This document shows positions 7,526-38,489 of a stretch of 39,901 nucleotides of DNA, piece after piece. This stretch comes from Clostridiaceae bacterium (lineage in GTDB: Bacteria; Bacillota; Clostridia; Saccharofermentanales; Fastidiosipilaceae). A program made the translations under genes and the position numbers. Position 1 is the stretch's first letter; each line of letters begins with the position of its first letter. The notes under the pieces were generated by a model that ran no database searches, was not told the origin of the DNA, and was given only the letters and a program-made list of their open reading frames with translations. The stretch spans positions 1 to 39,901 of the forward strand of contig JAAYOA010000043.1 of NCBI GenBank assembly GCA_012520525.1. Direction: 5' to 3'.

Positions 7526-8416
7526 TTATTCGTCTTTGATGTTACGACCAGTAGCGTATTTTGCTTCTCTCTCACGGATATCGGGTAAACCAACCATGCG
7601 ATTAAATTCAGGGAACGGGATCATGTCGTCCACCATATTGGCCGTTGTGCCTTCTGCTTTGAGGCGTTTCATGAGATTTGCCATAGCAGCAGCAGTCACG
7701 TAGGTAGAAGCTGTAGGATAAATTACAACGTTGTAACCCAGCTCTTCGAGGCGCTCATTCGGAAGAAGTGGGGTACGACCGCCTTCAACCATGTTGGCAA
7801 TCGTCAGTGCATCAATTTCATCGTTAATGCGCTTCATCTCTTCTTCGCTCTCGGGAGACTCAATGAAGACAATGTCTGCACCGGCTTCAGCAAAGGCCTT
7901 GCCGCGTTTGATTGCTTCATCAATGCCAAGCACTGTACGAGCATCCGTACGAGCCATAATCATGAAGTCCGGATCACGGCGAGCATCAACTGCCGCTTTA
8001 ATTTTTCCGATCATCTCGTCTAGGGGAATAACTTCGCGACCAACCATGTGACCACATTTTTTCGGCATGACTTGATCTTCAAGTTGAATCACGGCAACGC
8101 CGGCTTTTTCATATCCGCGAACTGTGCGGCCTACATTGATCGCATTACCAAAGCCGGTGTCCGCATCTGCAATGACGGGGACATCGCCACAGGCTTCGAC
8201 AAAGCACTCGGCCCGCATAACCATTTCAGAGTAGGTCATCAGACCAACGTCTGGCATACCAAGGTGACTAGCTGATTGACCATAACCGGTCATGTAAACG
8301 GCATCAAAACCTTCTTGACAAATAATTCTGGCTGTCAGTGCGTCGTGAGCTCCTGGCGCAATCAACATACGGCCTTCGGCAAACATCTCTCTGATACGGG
8401 TCGTGTTACGTTTCAT
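7526..8416 (-). CDS. dml: 2,3-Dimethylmalate lyase
   Basis: A 296-residue member of the isocitrate lyase/PEP mutase superfamily. It carries ADADTGFGN with Mg-binding aspartates D84/D86 and the catalytic loop KKCGHMVGRE with C121 and H123. In the nicotinate pathway it cleaves (2R,3S)-2,3-dimethylmalate to propionate and pyruvate, the final step. Methylisocitrate lyase (PrpB) has the same fold and motifs, so the assignment rests on the surrounding pathway genes. The gene follows the GlmL-like gene by 7 bases and its ribosome site AAAGGAG lies inside the end of that gene. A hairpin follows it. Confidence 0.88.
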   Translation of the reverse strand: MKRNTTRIREMFAEGRMLIAPGAHDALTARIICQEGFDAVYMTGYGQSASHLGMPDVGLMTYSEMVMRAECFVEACGDVPVIADADTGFGNAINVGRTVRGYEKAGVAVIQLEDQVMPKKCGHMVGREVIPLDEMIGKIKAAVDARRDPDFMIMARTDARTVLGIDEAIKRGKAFAEAGADIVFIESPESEEEMKRINDEIDALTIANMVEGGRTPLLPNERLEELGYNVVIYPTASTYVTAAAMANLMKRLKAEGTTANMVDDMIPFPEFNRMVGLPDIREREAKYATGRNIKDE

Positions 8417-8423
8417 AATTAAA

Positions 8424-10016
8424 TTACTCCTTTAATTTTCTTTTTTTGGCGGCTTCTCTCTGTTGTCGAAACCATTCTTTATGTTCTTCATCATCATGTA
8501 ATGCTTCTAAATCAAGCTTAGGTGGTTCATAAATAACCGGTTTGGGGCGTTCAATCACTTGTCCCGTAAATTGTTCGGATCGCATAAAGTTAAAAACTGC
8601 ATCCGGATAGTAGAGACCTAAAGTGCCTAAAGCAAAAACGAGATAATGTTTGTCAAATAGGAACTTGGGTTCTGTCGGGAATAATGATGGCCCAGGATCT
8701 GAAAAAGCCCGACCTAAAGTGATTTGATTAAACTCTTCTGCATGGTTGGCAAACATGCCACCGATGCCGAGGACTAATTTGACTTTGCGCAAATCTCTGC
8801 CAACTGGGAATCCCGGCAATACACCTGTATCTGGATTGTATTCCTGAACAATATATCCTGCGTGTCGTTTGAGAGAAACATGGATCGCTGCAATAGCAAG
8901 TGCCTGATCGAGTTTATCTTCCCAATTTGCCTCTGCAATTAGCTCAGTATTCTTCTTGCGTTCGCGGGCGTATTCTTCGATCATTTCAAGATTCTCAAAC
9001 TCAATTTCGTTATCGGGATCAAGAGTATTTACAATCTGTTCCAAAGACTCCGCGCCGACGGCATCGACGATACCTGTAGCACTGACACGCATACCAAGAT
9101 TACCTTCAACCGTTCGATAAGAGGCCTGTTTCTCATTGTTAATAATCAGACCAATTTCCTCGTCCCGTAGATCAGCAACCCCAGGTAAAACCGAGTGTAT
9201 GTCGGTGGTTGCACCACCTACATCGATCATTAAGACATCACCGAAACCTTCTTGATTCCGCGTGCCATTGGCCCAGAGTTCACCTGCTAACAACACCGCA
9301 CCTGGCGTCGGACGAATCTCTTTATCTTCCACAAGATTGACAAGATTCTCCAACCCTTTAGCGTTCGTCAGTTGTTTGATAAATTCATGGTGAATAGCTT
9401 CCCGGGCAGACGTTACATTTAGTCGGTGTATGGTAGGCATGATATTTGGACACACGACAAAATTAACGTCGTGGGTGTTCAGAATTTCAATAACCTGTGG
9501 CTGTGCCTCTTTATTGCAGGCAATGACCACCATACAACTCAATTCTGCCTCAACGATTAATCGCGCATTCTCTACGGCAGATTCAATTTCACCACCATCA
9601 GTACCACCCGCCAACAAAATAATGTCTGGCTTGATCTCTCGCAAGATTTCTAAGCGATAGGTGGGCGAATCCTCGTGAGAAATGACCTCGAGCACTCTGG
9701 CTCCCGCACTCATTGCAACTTCTTTGGCTGCTTTTGCAGTAACTCTAGGCATAAAGCCCATGGCCACCATGCGCAAGCCTCCAGCGGCACTGCACGTTGA
9801 GTAATATTTGACATCATCGGAAATCTCAATCTCTTGTGTTTTAAGTTTTGCCGTCGCTTTGTCGACACCTTCCATGATGTCATTCAATGTGGTCGGTGAC
9901 TGAGCTCTGCCTAGGAAATCCAAGTGATCTTGGTCCAATGCAAAGGCAACCGCTTTTGTATAGGTCGAACCGACGTCATATACGATAATATTTGCTTGCC
10001 TTTTTATTGTTTGCAT
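8424..10016 (-). CDS. GlmL/MutL-like ATPase, putative reactivase of the B12 mutase
   Basis: A 530-residue protein of the MutL/GlmL family of actin-fold ATPases, best known as the gene encoded between the two subunits of glutamate mutase. The phosphate-1 motif VYDVGSTYTKA is at residues 12-22 and a second phosphate motif, MIDVGGATTDIHS, lies near residue 265. The C-terminal ~60 residues are highly charged. It lies between the methylitaconate isomerase and dimethylmalate lyase genes, downstream of the B12-dependent mutase. A role in exchanging damaged cobalamin or keeping methyleneglutarate mutase active is the natural inference by analogy with diol dehydratase reactivases. The ribosome site is weak (AAATAAACGG), so translation may be coupled to mii, which ends 12 bases earlier. 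Confidence 0.8.
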   Translation of the reverse strand: MQTIKRQANIIVYDVGSTYTKAVAFALDQDHLDFLGRAQSPTTLNDIMEGVDKATAKLKTQEIEISDDVKYYSTCSAAGGLRMVAMGFMPRVTAKAAKEVAMSAGARVLEVISHEDSPTYRLEILREIKPDIILLAGGTDGGEIESAVENARLIVEAELSCMVVIACNKEAQPQVIEILNTHDVNFVVCPNIMPTIHRLNVTSAREAIHHEFIKQLTNAKGLENLVNLVEDKEIRPTPGAVLLAGELWANGTRNQEGFGDVLMIDVGGATTDIHSVLPGVADLRDEEIGLIINNEKQASYRTVEGNLGMRVSATGIVDAVGAESLEQIVNTLDPDNEIEFENLEMIEEYARERKKNTELIAEANWEDKLDQALAIAAIHVSLKRHAGYIVQEYNPDTGVLPGFPVGRDLRKVKLVLGIGGMFANHAEEFNQITLGRAFSDPGPSLFPTEPKFLFDKHYLVFALGTLGLYYPDAVFNFMRSEQFTGQVIERPKPVIYEPPKLDLEALHDDEEHKEWFRQQREAAKKRKLKE

Positions 10017-14901: not shown

Positions 14902-16032
14902 TTAAAGTGGAAGTTTAACATCTTCTGAAGTAAACCATCCCATTTTGCGGAATAATTGGCCGAACAGCCATGTCAACACGGCAGGCAATACAATACAAAT
15001 TAAGAGCAAGCCGATCCAATCCATGGCTGTCGCTGCCGTGGCAGTCGCACCCATTTCGATGGCGCGCTCACTGGGGGTTGCCCAACCTGCGATAACACCA
15101 ATCGGACCAACCATACCTGATGTACCCATACCAGAAGAGATCGGCGGGCCGTTCATCTCTAGCTTAAATACTAATGTTGCAATTGGACCAGTGATAGCCG
15201 CCGTCAACGTCGGCGGAATCCAAATCCGCGGATTCTTCATGATATTTGGCACTTGTAACATCGATGTACCGAGACCCTGAGCGATCAAGCCGCCAGGTCC
15301 ATTCTCTTTATAGGTCATAACTGCGAAACCAACCATTTGAGCACAACATCCGGCAGTTGCCGCGCCACCTGCCAGACCAACAAGGCCTAGGGCCGCGCAA
15401 ATCGCCGCCGAGCTGATCGGCAATGTCAGTGTAATACCGACGATGACAGATACTAAAATACCCATCAAGAATGGTTGCATGTTGGTTGCCCAGACAATGG
15501 CATTACCAATGGCTGCTGCCACTGCACCAATGCCAGGAGCCCACCACAGTGAGAGACCTACACCAACGAAAATTGTTACTAAAGGTGTTACCAAGATATC
15601 AATCTTCGTTTCCTTAGAAACTAGTTTGCCAAATTCAGCTGCAAAGATTGCAACGATCAGGACAGCTAATGGACCGCCTGCACCGCCGAGTGAGTTCGCG
15701 GCTATACCAACACCAGCCAGTGAAAAGAGTACCAACGGTGCGGCATGAAGTGCATGTCCGATCGCGACAGCCATCGCCGGACCAGTTGCCTGCATAGCGA
15801 ATGCACCCATTTCGATCAAAATCTCGAAAAATTTAGCTTCACCAAATGCATTTGTCAGCTGAACACCAACAGTATTTAATATTGTACCCATCAACAGTGA
15901 TGCGAAGAGACCTAAGGCCATCGAGCCCATAGCATCAATTGCATACCGTTGAAAAGAAATAACAACATCTTTCTTTTTTAAATAACGACCTACTTTACCA
16001 GGTTCTTTTTTTGTTTTAGAATCTTTACCCAT
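14902..16032 (-). CDS. Orphan PTS EIIC-like membrane protein, candidate nicotinate transporter
   Basis: A 376-residue integral membrane protein with about eight to ten hydrophobic segments rich in Gly and Ala, after a lysine-rich cytosolic N-terminus (residues 1-25). It resembles the PF13303 group annotated as PTS subunit IIC, which usually stands alone. No EIIA or EIIB gene or domain is present, so sugar phosphorylation is unlikely. It lies inside the nicotinate operon between hgd and dmdA behind an AGGTGA ribosome site, and it is the only transporter-like gene there. Uptake of nicotinate, or export of an acid product, is the contextual inference. The closest non-transport reading is a regulatory or structural membrane protein of the same family. 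Confidence 0.72.
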   Translation of the reverse strand: MGKDSKTKKEPGKVGRYLKKKDVVISFQRYAIDAMGSMALGLFASLLMGTILNTVGVQLTNAFGEAKFFEILIEMGAFAMQATGPAMAVAIGHALHAAPLVLFSLAGVGIAANSLGGAGGPLAVLIVAIFAAEFGKLVSKETKIDILVTPLVTIFVGVGLSLWWAPGIGAVAAAIGNAIVWATNMQPFLMGILVSVIVGITLTLPISSAAICAALGLVGLAGGAATAGCCAQMVGFAVMTYKENGPGGLIAQGLGTSMLQVPNIMKNPRIWIPPTLTAAITGPIATLVFKLEMNGPPISSGMGTSGMVGPIGVIAGWATPSERAIEMGATATAATAMDWIGLLLICIVLPAVLTWLFGQLFRKMGWFTSEDVKLPL

Positions 16033-17129: not shown

Positions 17130-17711
17130 TTATCTCAAACCATCTTCGCCCTTTACTTCACTAAGTTGGAGACCACCAATCCGAGGATGAGGACGACCAC
17201 CGGTCGTGAAAGCCAGAGCAACGACAATCTCATCCGGCATCGGGGCATCAGGAATGCGAATTTCTATAGCATCGTAGTGAGTACGAACGAATGCTGCATC
17301 CTTGTAGTGAAGTGGAACATCTAATGTTGTACCAGCTGGACCGGCCTTTTTCGCCGAAGGTATGATTGCCTTACCGCCGCCAATAGCAGCCCGCATAGGT
17401 TTACCAAGCTTTGGATGAAGAATAGCAGCACCGTGCTCTAATTCTCCATCGAGACCAATGATTGCACCTTTGCCGTAGTTATGGATCGGATCTCCTTCAA
17501 GCACTTTAACGGCTATTTCAGAGAGATAACCACCGAGATATTCACCAACTTCTGTTAGTTCACCTAGGTCTTCAACATATCTTCCGGCAAATGGATTCTT
17601 GATGATTGCGGCCACATAGCAACGCTTGATCGATTTTTCTAACGCTTTAAAGCCTTCATAACGGATTTCTTCTACATGGGTAACAACTTTTCTAATTTCA
17701 GGTTTTTTCAT
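17130..17711 (-). CDS. DUF1185 'amino acid synthesis' family protein
   Basis: A 193-residue cytosolic protein recognisable as PF06684, a family named from gene neighbourhoods. A structure in the family is, as I recall, similar to the trimeric chorismate mutase/YjgF-type fold. The conserved block GGGKAIIPSAKKAGPAGTTL lies near 111-130, followed by VPLHYKDAAFVRTHYD and a Gly/Pro-rich FTTGGRPHPRIGG near the end. It starts behind AAAGGA. It is not one of the nine known nicotinate-fermentation enzymes, yet it sits in mid-operon between the UPF0280 gene and hgd. A role around the enamine or formylglutarate intermediates is possible but is only inference. Confidence 0.75.
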   Translation of the reverse strand: MKKPEIRKVVTHVEEIRYEGFKALEKSIKRCYVAAIIKNPFAGRYVEDLGELTEVGEYLGGYLSEIAVKVLEGDPIHNYGKGAIIGLDGELEHGAAILHPKLGKPMRAAIGGGKAIIPSAKKAGPAGTTLDVPLHYKDAAFVRTHYDAIEIRIPDAPMPDEIVVALAFTTGGRPHPRIGGLQLSEVKGEDGLR

Positions 17712-17811: not shown

Positions 17812-18714
17812 TTATCGCTCCACCATATGGGTAGTGAAAAAGTCATGTGGATGCAATTCTATAATGTCTTGTACAGCAATACTGATGCCTCGCAAAGTAC
17901 CATTATTAAGAAATGGTACTGCAGCTTCAGCAACTTGAGCAGCCGAACGCATCGCATCATCCTTGCTGAGAAGGGGAACAGCAGTAACAACTTCCAAGTG
18001 ACCGATGTCTGTCGTTGGATCAATCTCAGACGCAAGTCTGCGCTCAACCCCAGGCAGCGGCAAAAATGATTTATTTGCCAAGCTGGTCGCCAGAGCATCA
18101 ACTTCGGCTCCAGTTTTGCCAAGCACTGTCACTCCGTTGGCAATTCCTAAAGTTAAACTTCTGCCACCGACACCACTCGTAGCGATACCGCCGATGCCAT
18201 CTTCGCCAGTTATGCGAAGTATGCTGCGGCGACCATCGTGGTGCATATCGTGCAATACGGCCACAGTCAGAGATTCATGGGGAGCTAATCGCAGAGCAAC
18301 GTCACCGCCATTATTGACAAAAATTTTCGTTGCGCCCATTTCAGCTAAGCGCTCTACTAAATAATCGGACATCGCTCCTGCTACCGCCGCCATAGGCGTC
18401 AGCTCTGGATCATTACAATTCATAACAGCTGCGACCATTTTCCCAGGCACTGTATCCTTCGCTATAGCGTCATACTGGGATTGCTTCGACTTATCATAAC
18501 AATCGGTATTGCGAAGTATGGGCAGGTAACGAGTCGTTTCCTCCAACTGTTGGTAGATCGTATCGTAGATAAAAAATTCTAAGTCTGGTACAGGCACATC
18601 GTCGCGCATGACTTTAACAACCATCGTGACGGGACCAAAATCGACTAAATACGACCTATCCGGAAGCAATGAAACGGCCTTCTTTGCCCGTTCTTTTTTT
18701 TCTTCGTTATTCAC
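17812..18714 (-). CDS. UPF0280 family protein, ApbE-like fold, putative flavin transferase
   Basis: A 300-residue protein of the UPF0280 family. Three segments echo the FAD:protein FMN transferase ApbE: VNNGGDVAL (133-141), GIATSGVGGRS (176-186) and EVDALATSLAN (204-214, like the ADALST motif). It has no signal peptide or lipobox, so it is cytosolic, unlike classical ApbE. It starts with GTG only 5 bases after the 6-hydroxynicotinate reductase stop, and the end of that gene (GAAGGT) supplies the ribosome site, so the two are coupled. E. barkeri 6-hydroxynicotinate reductase carries covalently bound flavin, so attaching that flavin is an attractive but unproven role. Confidence 0.75.
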   Translation of the reverse strand: MNNEEKKERAKKAVSLLPDRSYLVDFGPVTMVVKVMRDDVPVPDLEFFIYDTIYQQLEETTRYLPILRNTDCYDKSKQSQYDAIAKDTVPGKMVAAVMNCNDPELTPMAAVAGAMSDYLVERLAEMGATKIFVNNGGDVALRLAPHESLTVAVLHDMHHDGRRSILRITGEDGIGGIATSGVGGRSLTLGIANGVTVLGKTGAEVDALATSLANKSFLPLPGVERRLASEIDPTTDIGHLEVVTAVPLLSKDDAMRSAAQVAEAAVPFLNNGTLRGISIAVQDIIELHPHDFFTTHMVER

Positions 18715-18719
18715 GCGTG

Positions 18720-20243
18720 TTAACCTTCAAACTCTTTTCTAACTTCTTCAACGGGACGAATCTCTGATATATGACCTTCGATGGCTTCGTAGTCTTCCCG
18801 AGTCATTGTATATTCAACCGGGCACACCGTTGCCGGTGTCGGAACCCAAGTAAAGGCCTTATTAACCACTTTTCCTGTGTCAACCATAAAGTTAATACCG
18901 CCACCTGGCATAACAAATGCAGGGGCACCGCCAATCGTCAGGACAGCCTTATTAGCATGGACGGCTTCTGTGATCCCCACTGGGCGCTTACATACGCCAC
19001 CGCGGGCACTACCACCCGTGCCACCGACATACAAGACTGAGGTCGTAGACTGTTGACAGTTATTGGTAATGGTCTGAACAAGTTCCATGGCTTTGTCCGT
19101 CATTGGGATACTCTTGACATCGCCGTCCTCGAGCACTTCAAACATTTCGTAGATCTCGCCCGTTGTATTCGTGACGAGAATCGTCATACCAGGTTTGGCG
19201 AGGTTCATATCGATCGATTTGATTGCATCTCTAGGCGTGGCAATAGTCGTACCGCCAATTCCTTCACCGTGCTCACCAAAATAACGTCCTGCAGAAGAAC
19301 GCGTTGCATTGGGCACAACTCCCGTCCAGGTTAGACCGACTTCCCGACCAGCCAAGTGCTCAGAGAGAAGTCCCACGACATGATGATCAATGACTATACA
19401 TTCGTCCACAGCTTCTTTCATGCGATCTGCGAACAGACCAATGGTGGCACTGCCACAACCGATCCGCATGACACTTTCTTGGACACCATTAATAATGGGT
19501 GCATTGCCATGTTGGACGGTAACCGTAATTTTCTTATTTACTTTAAGAGTAACTTCTTCGCCGTTAGCTAATTCAACGATGGTTCTAGCGACGATAAAGC
19601 CGTCTTTGCCCGTCAATAAATTAGCTCCGCCAATGGCAATCATCTTGGAACCATATTGCTCTGTTTCAACCAGACCAACAATTTTGTTGTCGCGGTATAC
19701 TGGATCGCCTTCTTCTCCAATATAAGTATTGGTATCAAGTTTTAAGGTTACTCCGCTGTAGCTCAAAGGCGCTTCGGTGACAACGGTGACGACTTCAACG
19801 CCATCCCGAATATCAGATACGATATGGGGTGCCGGTCTGATACAAGGATAATTCGATCCTGCACCCACACCGGTAATCAAAGGTTTTTGTAATATTGATG
19901 GGGGATAGGCTTTCTCGCACTTTTCGTTATTTAAAACTAATTTGCGATTGCGCACTAAAGTGCCGCCTTCATTTGTATAACGTTTGCAAGCACCTGTCCG
20001 TCCTTCGGGAATTCGGCATTGCACAGGACAAGATGTACACACCGTTGCTTCGGGACTTGGCTCTGCGGGTTTTTCGATGGCACTAAATGGACAGACACGG
20101 ACGCAGATGCCACATTCAATACAGCGATCATCAACTTCCGCTTTGCGTTTTTTCTCACCGACTGACACTAATTTTAGTGCATTAACGGGACAATTTTTGA
20201 CGCAAATGCCACAGCCAACACATTTATCAGTAATAATTACCAT
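18720..20243 (-). CDS. hnr: 6-Hydroxynicotinate reductase
   Basis: A 507-residue iron-sulfur flavoprotein that reduces 6-hydroxynicotinate to 1,4,5,6-tetrahydro-6-oxonicotinate, with ferredoxin-like electron supply. The N-terminus has two complete [4Fe-4S] motifs (C8/C11/C14/C18 and C41/C44/C47/C51). A third set, C69/C72/C76/C86, could hold the additional [2Fe-2S] cluster reported for the E. barkeri enzyme. That enzyme also contains covalently bound flavin; I do not see the classical FMN-binding-domain SGAT motif here, so the attachment site is unclear. The start follows GTGAGGATTAA. The gene is flanked by ena and by the ApbE-like UPF0280 gene. Confidence 0.9.
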   Translation of the reverse strand: MVIITDKCVGCGICVKNCPVNALKLVSVGEKKRKAEVDDRCIECGICVRVCPFSAIEKPAEPSPEATVCTSCPVQCRIPEGRTGACKRYTNEGGTLVRNRKLVLNNEKCEKAYPPSILQKPLITGVGAGSNYPCIRPAPHIVSDIRDGVEVVTVVTEAPLSYSGVTLKLDTNTYIGEEGDPVYRDNKIVGLVETEQYGSKMIAIGGANLLTGKDGFIVARTIVELANGEEVTLKVNKKITVTVQHGNAPIINGVQESVMRIGCGSATIGLFADRMKEAVDECIVIDHHVVGLLSEHLAGREVGLTWTGVVPNATRSSAGRYFGEHGEGIGGTTIATPRDAIKSIDMNLAKPGMTILVTNTTGEIYEMFEVLEDGDVKSIPMTDKAMELVQTITNNCQQSTTSVLYVGGTGGSARGGVCKRPVGITEAVHANKAVLTIGGAPAFVMPGGGINFMVDTGKVVNKAFTWVPTPATVCPVEYTMTREDYEAIEGHISEIRPVEEVRKEFEG

Positions 20244-21846: not shown

Positions 21847-24258
21847 TTAACGCTTGCGATTCATCTCTCGAGCGATATCAATATAAAGAATTGGCAGATT
21901 TCCAAAGTGGATGCCAACTGCATTTTCCACAGCGTCAGCACAAGCCGGAATGGTAGGAATGAGAGCCGGTTCGCCGACGCCCTTCGCACCAAATGGTCCT
22001 GCTTCTCCCTCACTCTCAACGATCAGCGGATAAATCTTTGGCGCATCCATCGCAGCCGGGATTATATAATCGGAGAAATTCAAGTTCTTAATTCGACCGC
22101 GAGTCAGTATGACATCTTCGAATAAGGCAAAGCCGATGCCCATGACGACACCGCCTTCGATCTGAGCTTCAACCATTTGTGGATTAACAGCTGTACCCAC
22201 ATCGTGCACCGAAATAACATTTTTCACTTCGGTCTCGTAGGTTTCAACATTAACTTCTAGGTCGACAATAGCCGTCGCATACGAATAGACCTCAAATGGA
22301 ATACCAGACATATCCTTCGGACTCAAATAGGTAGTCTTGGGATTATAGCTGCCTACACCGAGAGCCAACTTACCGATTCGACGCATTTCCATCATCAACA
22401 TTGGATATGTCATCTTGGTATCAGGATCTTCCCGATCCCAAATCTTTCTTTCTCTAAATATTAGACGTTCTGCAGGCACTTTGAGATAATCCGATGCCAC
22501 TTCCATCAATGTTTGTTTTGCCATATAGGCTGCATTTTGTGTGGCTTTACCAGAGATAAATGTTTGTCGGCTGGCCGAGGTCGCACCACCTTCTGGGGTG
22601 ACCATGGTATGAGCATATGTGACATTAATGTCCTCATAATTTAAACCTAATTCCTCAGCACAAATTTGTGCCATAACAGTGGTCGAGCCTTGACCGATAT
22701 CTGCGCATCCCACCAACAGGTTAACGCTACAGTCGCCTAATACTTCGACGAAGGCTCCAGCCGGATTGGGCAGACCGGTATTGCCGATGCCATACCACAT
22801 ACAACCGATGCCTAAGCCTCTCTTCTTATTCGGCGCAGAAGGTTGATAAGTCTCATCGTTAAAGAGCTCATTCATCTTCTCTCTCGCCGCTTCCAAGGTC
22901 TCAACAAAACCCACACTTTCGGTGAGTTCCTGACCTGTCGGAAGAATGGTACCTACGCGATGGGCATTCTTGATCCGCAAATCGATAGGATCCATGCCGA
23001 GTTCACGAGCCAAAGCATTCATTTGTCCTTCGTGGGCAATAGAAATCTGCGGAACGCCAAAACCTCGGAACGCACCAGACATAGGATTATTTGTGTAATA
23101 AAATTCAGCTGTAATATCTACATTCGGCACATAATAAGGACCAGTGGCGTGAACAACCGCCCGGGTAATAACAGCGGGACCATAAGATGCATAGGCACCT
23201 GTGTCTCCCGTCATGTGGATCTTCATTGCCAAGATCGTTCCGTCTTTTTTAGCGCCTGTCTTATAATGCATGGTCATCGGATGTCGTTTGGAAGAAACCA
23301 TGGTTGACTCTTCCCGCTTCCGCACCATCTTAATCGGACGGCCCGTGTGATAACAAAGCAATCCTAAGTGGCACTGGACACCGATATCTAATTTACCGCC
23401 AAAGCCGCCGCCAGTAGCCGCCTGAATAACATTGACCTTGTTGTGAGAAATAGCCAACATATTGGCAACTTCACCGCGGTCAAAGTGGGGGTTCTGGGTC
23501 GACACATAAATTGTCAAAATACCATTGACATATTCTGCGAGACCGGCATCAGGTTCGATAAACATATGGGATTTCATGCCCGAACTGTAGGTTTTCTCAA
23601 CAATGACGTCACATTGTTCAAACGCCGCATCCACATCACCACAGAAGAGGTGTTTAGATTGATGCAGATTGGTTTCGCCGTGAATCTTCGGCGAATCGGC
23701 CTCAGCGGCGCGATCAATTGTTAAAACAGCTTCGATTTCGTCATATTCGATTTCAATCGCATTCAGAGCCTCTTCTACAAGTTCTTCCGTTTCGGCTGCT
23801 ACTAAACAAATGGCATCACCGATACGACGGATCTTATTTTCGACAAGAATGGGCTCATCTTTAATGATAATACCTGTTTGGTTTAACCCTGGAATATCCT
23901 TATAGGTCAACACACAGGCTACACCTGGTATAGCTGCTGCTTTACTAATATCTAAGTGATCAATAAAACCAGCTGGAATTTTACTGCGGAAAACGCCACC
24001 ATACAACATATTGGGACGCTTCATATCTCCCGCAAACTGGGTCTTGCCTATGACTTTCTCATAGGCGTCTTTTTTATTAACATTCTTTCCTAGAACCGAA
24101 AAATCACGGTCTAGGGTTTCTGATTTTTGTGGTTGAGCCGGCACTTCTTGTGGCTCTACCGTCTTTCTCTGTGGCGGTTGTGTCACGACTTTGCTGTCGC
24201 GAACCGAAGTATCAATGGTTGCGGTTGTCTGCTCTGGATTGCGAACATTCTTTTTCAT
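21847..24258 (-). CDS. ndhL: Nicotinate dehydrogenase, molybdopterin subunit (NdhL and NdhM in one chain)
   Basis: An 803-residue xanthine-dehydrogenase-family molybdopterin subunit. It hydroxylates nicotinate to 6-hydroxynicotinate with NdhF and NdhS. Family motifs run in order: GGGFGGK 283-289, GAFRGFG 395-401, the GQGS cofactor loop near 522 and the catalytic-type Glu E763 in GVGEPA. In E. barkeri the same part is split into NdhL and NdhM, whereas here the frame is continuous. The first ~53 residues are a Pro/Gln/Thr-rich extension absent from the usual fold. No in-frame stop or UGA selenocysteine codon occurs, in keeping with the non-selenocysteine selenium known for E. barkeri. The ATG overlaps the ndhS stop as ATGA. 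Confidence 0.9.
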   Translation of the reverse strand: MKKNVRNPEQTTATIDTSVRDSKVVTQPPQRKTVEPQEVPAQPQKSETLDRDFSVLGKNVNKKDAYEKVIGKTQFAGDMKRPNMLYGGVFRSKIPAGFIDHLDISKAAAIPGVACVLTYKDIPGLNQTGIIIKDEPILVENKIRRIGDAICLVAAETEELVEEALNAIEIEYDEIEAVLTIDRAAEADSPKIHGETNLHQSKHLFCGDVDAAFEQCDVIVEKTYSSGMKSHMFIEPDAGLAEYVNGILTIYVSTQNPHFDRGEVANMLAISHNKVNVIQAATGGGFGGKLDIGVQCHLGLLCYHTGRPIKMVRKREESTMVSSKRHPMTMHYKTGAKKDGTILAMKIHMTGDTGAYASYGPAVITRAVVHATGPYYVPNVDITAEFYYTNNPMSGAFRGFGVPQISIAHEGQMNALARELGMDPIDLRIKNAHRVGTILPTGQELTESVGFVETLEAAREKMNELFNDETYQPSAPNKKRGLGIGCMWYGIGNTGLPNPAGAFVEVLGDCSVNLLVGCADIGQGSTTVMAQICAEELGLNYEDINVTYAHTMVTPEGGATSASRQTFISGKATQNAAYMAKQTLMEVASDYLKVPAERLIFRERKIWDREDPDTKMTYPMLMMEMRRIGKLALGVGSYNPKTTYLSPKDMSGIPFEVYSYATAIVDLEVNVETYETEVKNVISVHDVGTAVNPQMVEAQIEGGVVMGIGFALFEDVILTRGRIKNLNFSDYIIPAAMDAPKIYPLIVESEGEAGPFGAKGVGEPALIPTIPACADAVENAVGIHFGNLPILYIDIAREMNRKR

Positions 24259-37328: not shown

Positions 37329-38489
37329 TCATTGTACAATGTATAGCTCAAAGCCAGGAGAAAAGGTGACTTGATCCCCCTTTACCCACACTGCTTCGGT
37401 GTCCGGGTACATATTTAATAATTCCATCCCCTCTGCTATCGACATATTAAACAACGCCGTAGTCAAACTGTCAGCCAAACCTGAATCGGGGGAAATAACT
37501 GTAATAGCATCATAATAAGTTGAGGGCGCTAGAGTTGCCGGATCGATAATATGGTGATAACGTTCCCCATCAACGATAAAAAAACGTTGATAAACTCCAC
37601 TCGTAACGACAGCTCGATCCGTTACTCCCACTGTAAACAATAGAGGATCTACTTCATCTCCTGCTAATTCGGTCTCTCCATCACCTTCTAATGATGCCGT
37701 TGTTTCCGATGTAGTTAGTGTAGCAACAGGATTTTGAATACCTATTCGCCATAGTTCACCACCGTCTTTGAAGCCCAAGGTACGTACATTTCCGCCTAAG
37801 CTTAACATGCAAGACTGCAGACCTGAAGCCGCCAATTGTTGAATAATTAGTTCGGCCGCCAAACCCTTGGCACCGGATCCTACATCCAAGGATCCCTGGG
37901 AATCCTTCAATTGTACAGTTTGGTTTTCTGAATCGACAATCACATTTTTAATATCACAGTGGACCGCAGCAGCTTGCAGCGCTTGCAGAGAAGGAGGTTG
38001 ACGGGAGGCTGCAGGTTGAATAGAAGCTTGCTGCCATAATTTTATAACTGGTCCAAGAGCCATGTTGTCAGCTCCCTGACTTATTTCATTTATAGACAAT
38101 GACTGTTCCATAAGAGTGATTATAGCTTCGGGTACCTCTATAGGTTCACCGCCGGCCGAATCATTAATTGTCTTTAAATTAACAACATCGGGATAATTAT
38201 TATAAATATCATATAACTGATGATAGTAAATGAGACGGTCTTCTGCTAAGGAAAAATACTGTTCCGCCTCATTTGAGTCTGATGCATAAATAATCATCGT
38301 GCTAACTGTATCAAAAAAATCGATCCAGGTTCGTTCAAAGCGTTGTAAACTACTATTTTCTGACTCTTCCCTGCTGGCACAACCTCCTAAAGGGAATAGT
38401 ACTCCATAACTAACAACTAAAATTAAAAAAAGAACGATCACACGACGACATATTGACAACCTAGACCATCTTATAATCTTTTTCCTCAT
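37329..38489 (-). CDS. apbE: FAD:protein FMN transferase, lipoprotein
   Basis: A 386-residue flavin transferase that attaches FMN to threonine in extracytosolic redox proteins. The signal sequence ends in lipobox LGGC with C37 as the lipidated residue. Family motifs appear in order: GAKGLAAELI, SLGGNVRTLG, WRIGIQNPV, VTSGVYQRFF, YHHIIDP and ADSLTTALFNM. An inserted Thr/Glu-rich stretch of about 30 residues lies after IQNPV. It starts behind AGGTGA and ends the operon that begins with the NusG-II and Gx transporter genes. No FMN-binding-domain substrate is encoded in the window. Confidence 0.92.
   Translation of the reverse strand: MRKKIIRWSRLSICRRVIVLFLILVVSYGVLFPLGGCASREESENSSLQRFERTWIDFFDTVSTMIIYASDSNEAEQYFSLAEDRLIYYHQLYDIYNNYPDVVNLKTINDSAGGEPIEVPEAIITLMEQSLSINEISQGADNMALGPVIKLWQQASIQPAASRQPPSLQALQAAAVHCDIKNVIVDSENQTVQLKDSQGSLDVGSGAKGLAAELIIQQLAASGLQSCMLSLGGNVRTLGFKDGGELWRIGIQNPVATLTTSETTASLEGDGETELAGDEVDPLLFTVGVTDRAVVTSGVYQRFFIVDGERYHHIIDPATLAPSTYYDAITVISPDSGLADSLTTALFNMSIAEGMELLNMYPDTEAVWVKGDQVTFSPGFELYIVQ

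Follow-up and report, generated by a model that had tools for sequence, protein, structure and literature searches.

The window, by which we mean the whole stretch of 39,901 nucleotides that was analysed, holds a gene for 6-hydroxynicotinate reductase (Hnr, 507 aa, 18720..20243, minus strand) and, directly downstream on the same strand, a gene for a UPF0280/COG2122 protein of 300 aa with a GTG start (17812..18714), which we propose to be a cytosolic flavin transferase with Hnr as its target. The two genes are separated by 5 bases, as the sequence-only reading had it, and its suggestion that the end of hnr serves as the ribosome site of UPF0280 is probably right, since a GAAGG (18724..18728, minus strand) lies within the final two hnr codons with the GTG 9 bases further on. 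No signal peptide or lipobox is seen at the N-terminus of UPF0280. The genes around hnr code for Ndh, Ena, Hgd and, judged by sequence, a mutase, a dehydratase and a lyase, which marks the locus as a nicotinate (vitamin B3) fermentation cluster, and most related loci have these genes around hnr too. A lone PTS_EIIC_2-type membrane protein (14902-16032, minus strand) is found within this cluster and in several related ones, and is a candidate for a nicotinate transporter. An 803-aa molybdopterin protein (21847-24258, minus strand) carries both MoCo-binding domains on one chain; in the nicotinate dehydrogenase of E. barkeri these domains are reported to be divided between NdhL and NdhM. The next gene downstream of UPF0280 codes for an AA_synth (PF06684) protein (17130..17711, minus strand) with no assigned role. 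AA_synth also follows Hnr and UPF0280 in several anaerobes and in plasmid operons, in the latter in two copies, is located near many anaerobic hnr loci and adjoins an Hnr paralogue in the same genome, and it is probably a part of Hnr-type heterocycle breakdown.

Hnr begins with a 2x[4Fe-4S] ferredoxin domain with eight invariant cysteines (20070..20243, minus strand), followed by Cys 69, 72, 76 and 86 (19986..20039, minus strand), all four invariant, which probably hold a third Fe-S cluster. The E. barkeri enzyme reportedly contains a covalent flavin, one 2Fe-2S and two 4Fe-4S clusters, and the eight ferredoxin cysteines and four further invariant ones of the Hnr family fit this cluster content; the window protein has the same pattern, suited to two 4Fe-4S clusters and one further cluster. 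The gene context (nicotinate dehydrogenase, enamidase, Hgd, mutase) is also like that of E. barkeri, so that the identity as 6-hydroxynicotinate reductase has both the cysteines of the ferredoxin and third cluster and the nicotinate gene cluster behind it.

The standard target of ApbE flavin transferases, D-x-x-[ST]-G-A-[ST], was found in 0 of 65 Hnr sequences. A relaxed pattern, [DE]xx[ST]xx[ST], matches 61 of the 65, and [D/E]VVTxxT, whose 1-4-7 spacing is that of the ApbE target motif, is nearly universal in Hnr. The window protein has EVVTVVT at residues 150-156 (19776..19796, minus strand; family consensus DVVTVVT), and the positions of T153 and T156 are always Thr or Ser in the family. 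Our best guess from this motif is that T156 or T153 would be the acceptor of the covalent flavin. Two features of the motif speak against flavin transfer: the GA found in the ApbE target is missing, and the Hnr model places the motif in a beta-strand. The flavin could be attached by an ordinary cellular ApbE, and the genome does have one (37329..38489, minus strand). Its sequence includes a signal peptide, a lipobox and an HHIIDP loop; as an exported lipoprotein it should work outside the membrane and is unlikely to modify the cytosolic Hnr. Of 42 Hnr genomes, some of them incomplete, 19 moreover gave no full ordinary ApbE, and with the standard target motif missing from Hnr this explanation is hardly credible.

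The coupling of the two genes is not peculiar to this genome. A scan for close loci, with the C-terminal part of Hnr as query and one genome per species, gave 17 loci, and UPF0280 is near Hnr in 14 of the 14 where Hnr exceeds 50% identity, directly downstream in 13 and about 1.3 kb off on the opposite strand in Spirochaeta (L039). Among 148 Desulfobacterota genomes COG2122 lies within about 0.5 kb of 24 of the 28 full Hnr genes, and all genomes with Hnr in this sample (27/27) have COG2122. In alpha- and betaproteobacterial plasmids most of the records with either gene hold both, and in the regions opened the two are adjacent and often overlap by 4 bases. These counts rule out chance adjacency and show the expected co-occurrence to be very strong; the pair of Hnr and UPF0280 is conserved and specific. 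Hnr is however one of two partners, as most COG2122 proteins pair with HcyBio (DUF39, PF01837). In the window's class (196 genomes) COG2122 is present in 28/28 genomes with HcyBio or Hnr, against 0/168 without; 27 of the 28 have HcyBio, and the window's genome has Hnr and no HcyBio. The corresponding figures for Desulfobacterota are 100/103 and 5/45 (Fisher 5.5e-27, a type of value that overstates independence, since the genomes behind the co-occurrence counts are related and some are incomplete). The Fisher values have no bearing on the fidelity of the clades described below or on the fact that the coupling recurs in several phyla. Genomes with both partners mostly have two copies of COG2122, and those with a single partner mostly one. 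Such one-to-one copy number, and the overlapping genes, would also fit a structural or allosteric subunit or an assembly factor of Hnr (and HcyBio) without any flavin chemistry, but the conservation of UPF0280 is centred on an ApbE-like catalytic site, which makes a role of this kind improbable.

The window protein belongs to the UPF0280 family: model NF003322 matches it with 195.5 bits (E 1e-57), short of the 290 bits set as equivalog cut-off, and a family profile search finds 2o34 at 1e-40. In its AlphaFold2 model (pLDDT 93.6) the protein has a predicted ApbE-like fold, and Foldseek finds convincing matches in PDB only to DVU1097 (2o34) and to the ApbE flavin transferases (probability 1.00, best ApbE E 2.7e-5, TM about 0.35-0.50). 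Pfam ApbE matches 11 of 16 UPF0280 members at E <=1 (best 4.9e-6); the window protein reaches 19.8 bits with PF02424, short of the gathering cut-off of 25.6, which some orthologues exceed. Profile-profile comparison of UPF0280 with ApbE gives 97% probability (E 9e-12) over the catalytic half. The motifs NNGGD (residues 134-138, 18301..18315), GIATSG (176-181, 18172..18189) and DALAT (206-210, 18085..18099), all on the minus strand, align with the GG motif, GISTSG and Mg-site Asp and Thr of ApbE, and the conserved D206 and T210 of this DxxxT site align with DAWDT of EcFtp. The conservation of N135, G136, G137, D138, S180, D206 and T210 in nearly all relatives (n=97) is beyond chance. The resemblance to ApbE that had been read from such motifs is therefore backed by Pfam, profiles and fold, and the Mg-site Asp and Thr are kept in the model.

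There are also clear differences from ApbE, Ftp and FmnB (PF02424), with which UPF0280 has the fold and the GG, TSG and Mg-site motifs in common: UPF0280 is cytosolic without a signal, its N-terminal half differs, and the HIIDPxTG loop is deleted, together with the general-base His, an 18-residue stretch of ApbE being missing in the alignment. In V. cholerae ApbE the general base is His257 of this HxIDPxTG loop (PMC12052999). UPF0280 thus departs from the textbook ApbE, and it cannot be taken for granted that it is active. Without the general base, hydrolysis or binding could be favoured at the expense of transfer, and a Treponema ApbE relative hydrolyses FAD according to one report (PMC4767422), so UPF0280 could be an FAD pyrophosphatase or a flavin chaperone, like Treponema Ftp, that hands FMN to an Hnr which attaches the flavin by itself. 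Cells already have cytosolic FMN, though, and the strict fidelity between partners better suits an enzyme that modifies proteins, and we find a role of this type quite doubtful.

The family is not uncharacterised, as was claimed from the sequence. Desulfovibrio needs COG2122 to make homocysteine, and the gene has a fitness pattern similar to that of DUF39 (r = 0.98); the same study held that the homology of COG2122 does not reach the flavin-binding region of ApbE and favoured sulfur transfer (PMC5764234), a view that stands against a flavin transferase. The COG2122 protein MA1715 of Methanosarcina is described as a sulfur-trafficking protein (PMC12068725). In our literature search no paper was found that proposes flavin transfer by COG2122. 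The window protein has the same family and fold as DVU1097 (PDB 2o34), MA1715 and DvMF_0044, with the NGGD, TSG and DAxAT sites in common, but those pair with HcyBio/DUF39 for homocysteine whereas the window protein pairs with Hnr; it also differs from known COG2122 proteins at residue 185, which is R and not H, in lacking a Cys at 178 and in its longer C-terminal part. A tree of COG2122 (n=97) has one deep split by partner, with 100% support and no swaps of partner between the clades: in the Hnr clade 38 of 45 rows adjoin Hnr and none HcyBio, and in the HcyBio clade 29 of 52 adjoin HcyBio and none Hnr. Residue 185 is Arg in every row of the Hnr clade and mostly His in the HcyBio clade, where it could possibly substitute for the missing general-base His of ApbE.

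A rival reading is that COG2122 acts on a ferredoxin-containing partner, be it Hnr or HcyBio, by supplying sulfur to it or by building a persulfide or Fe-S clusters there. The place of MA1715 in sulfide assimilation and the need for COG2122 in homocysteine synthesis (PMC5764234, PMC12068725) point in that direction, as do the ferredoxin domains that work with both partners and the Cys at 178 in 49/52 of the HcyBio clade. The 45 rows of the Hnr clade have no conserved Cys, however, which argues against a sulfur carrier; Hnr transfers no sulfur, and the residues that are conserved are those of the Mg-phosphate site of ApbE. We therefore regard sulfur delivery as rather unlikely.

The genetic coupling, the partner-specific clades, the fold, the Mg site, the absence of ApbE from many Hnr genomes and the lack of a conserved Cys make it the best explanation that UPF0280 is a cytosolic flavin transferase dedicated to Hnr, unproven as this is, and on balance we believe that it is the right one. 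The sequence-only reading had proposed this function, and it withstands two of its own three refutation tests, in that the co-occurrence, the fold and the Mg site stand; the missing His loop, which is our main doubt, and the fact that Hnr is one partner of two weaken it. UPF0280 of the Hnr clade would belong to the ApbE superfamily and work in the cytosol. Produced directly after Hnr from the same transcript, it would bind Mg and FAD and place FMN on a Thr or Ser residue of Hnr, and the covalent flavin would then pass electrons from the Fe-S clusters to 6-hydroxynicotinate. This would explain the intracellular origin of the covalent flavin of Hnr, give a biochemical function to a partly understood family and add to the flavin transferases a cytosolic branch with a new target motif.

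Nicotinate reduction involves no transfer of sulfur, and that COG2122 has a dedicated partner there speaks for flavin rather than sulfur as the theme that its two partners could have in common. HcyBio/COG1900 (L-ASST MA1821; MMP16/ComF) is like Hnr in working with a ferredoxin domain and in having its own COG2122 partner and DVVTxxT, which in the form DVVT[TC][GA]T is nearly universal in HcyBio, and it is unlike Hnr in its chemistry, a sulfur transfer to an aldehyde. With DVVTxxT the two share a motif similar to the flavinylation motif, which suggests a single common function. Homology of the C-terminal domain of Hnr to HcyBio/COG1900 is only suggested by profile comparison: the best segment pairs VDVVTVVTEAPLSYSG of Hnr with VDVVTTGTFGPMCSSG of HcyBio (P 0.013; 5 of 600 shuffles as good), and with a second collinear segment the joint score is above all 600 column shuffles, by a statistic picked after seeing the data. 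A Pfam search gave no match for HcyBio in Hnr, hhalign aligned a motif only, and Foldseek of the Hnr model returned only ferredoxins; no HcyBio structure was found in PDB. An iterative profile search that seemingly joined the two families was an artefact of the ferredoxin part in a fused HcyBio protein. We tentatively extend the idea, as a possibility with the odds against it, to COG2122 as cytosolic FMN transferase for a superfamily of ferredoxin-coupled reductases (Hnr and the COG1900 enzymes of homocysteine, perhaps also coenzyme M, synthesis), with the second Thr of DVVTxxT as acceptor. Many anaerobes and methanogens would then make homocysteine by way of a covalent flavin that has gone unrecognised; FMN would be expected on HcyBio, and the sulfur-carrier idea would be replaced.

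Some relatives deviate from the common arrangement. A divergent MMP16-like HcyBio of Desulfobacterota (L178 1911-4055, G237:C13) has a ferredoxin domain inserted and its own COG2122 directly upstream. Some Hnr-like paralogues have no UPF0280 next to them, which counts against flavin transfer to Hnr. One of these is in the window's genome (G000:C119:1390-3003; L031, L076), with 39% identity and no COG2122 of its own; its neighbours are two amidohydrolases, a cytosine/purine-type permease and AA_synth, and it likely belongs to another heterocycle pathway. No close HcyBio relatives were found on plasmids. On a Hydrogenophaga plasmid (L194) a lone UPF0280 gene (7887-8819) lies 3' of an IS1071 transposase; the record has four UPF0280 matches, and the 16.7-kb stretch viewed has no Hnr. 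Plasmid operons of aerobic Proteobacteria (L192, L193, L195) combine ferredoxin:NADP reductase, Hnr, UPF0280, two AA_synth and an ABC transporter with a molybdopterin dehydrogenase close by, and would represent an undescribed pathway with an Hnr-like enzyme outside fermentation.
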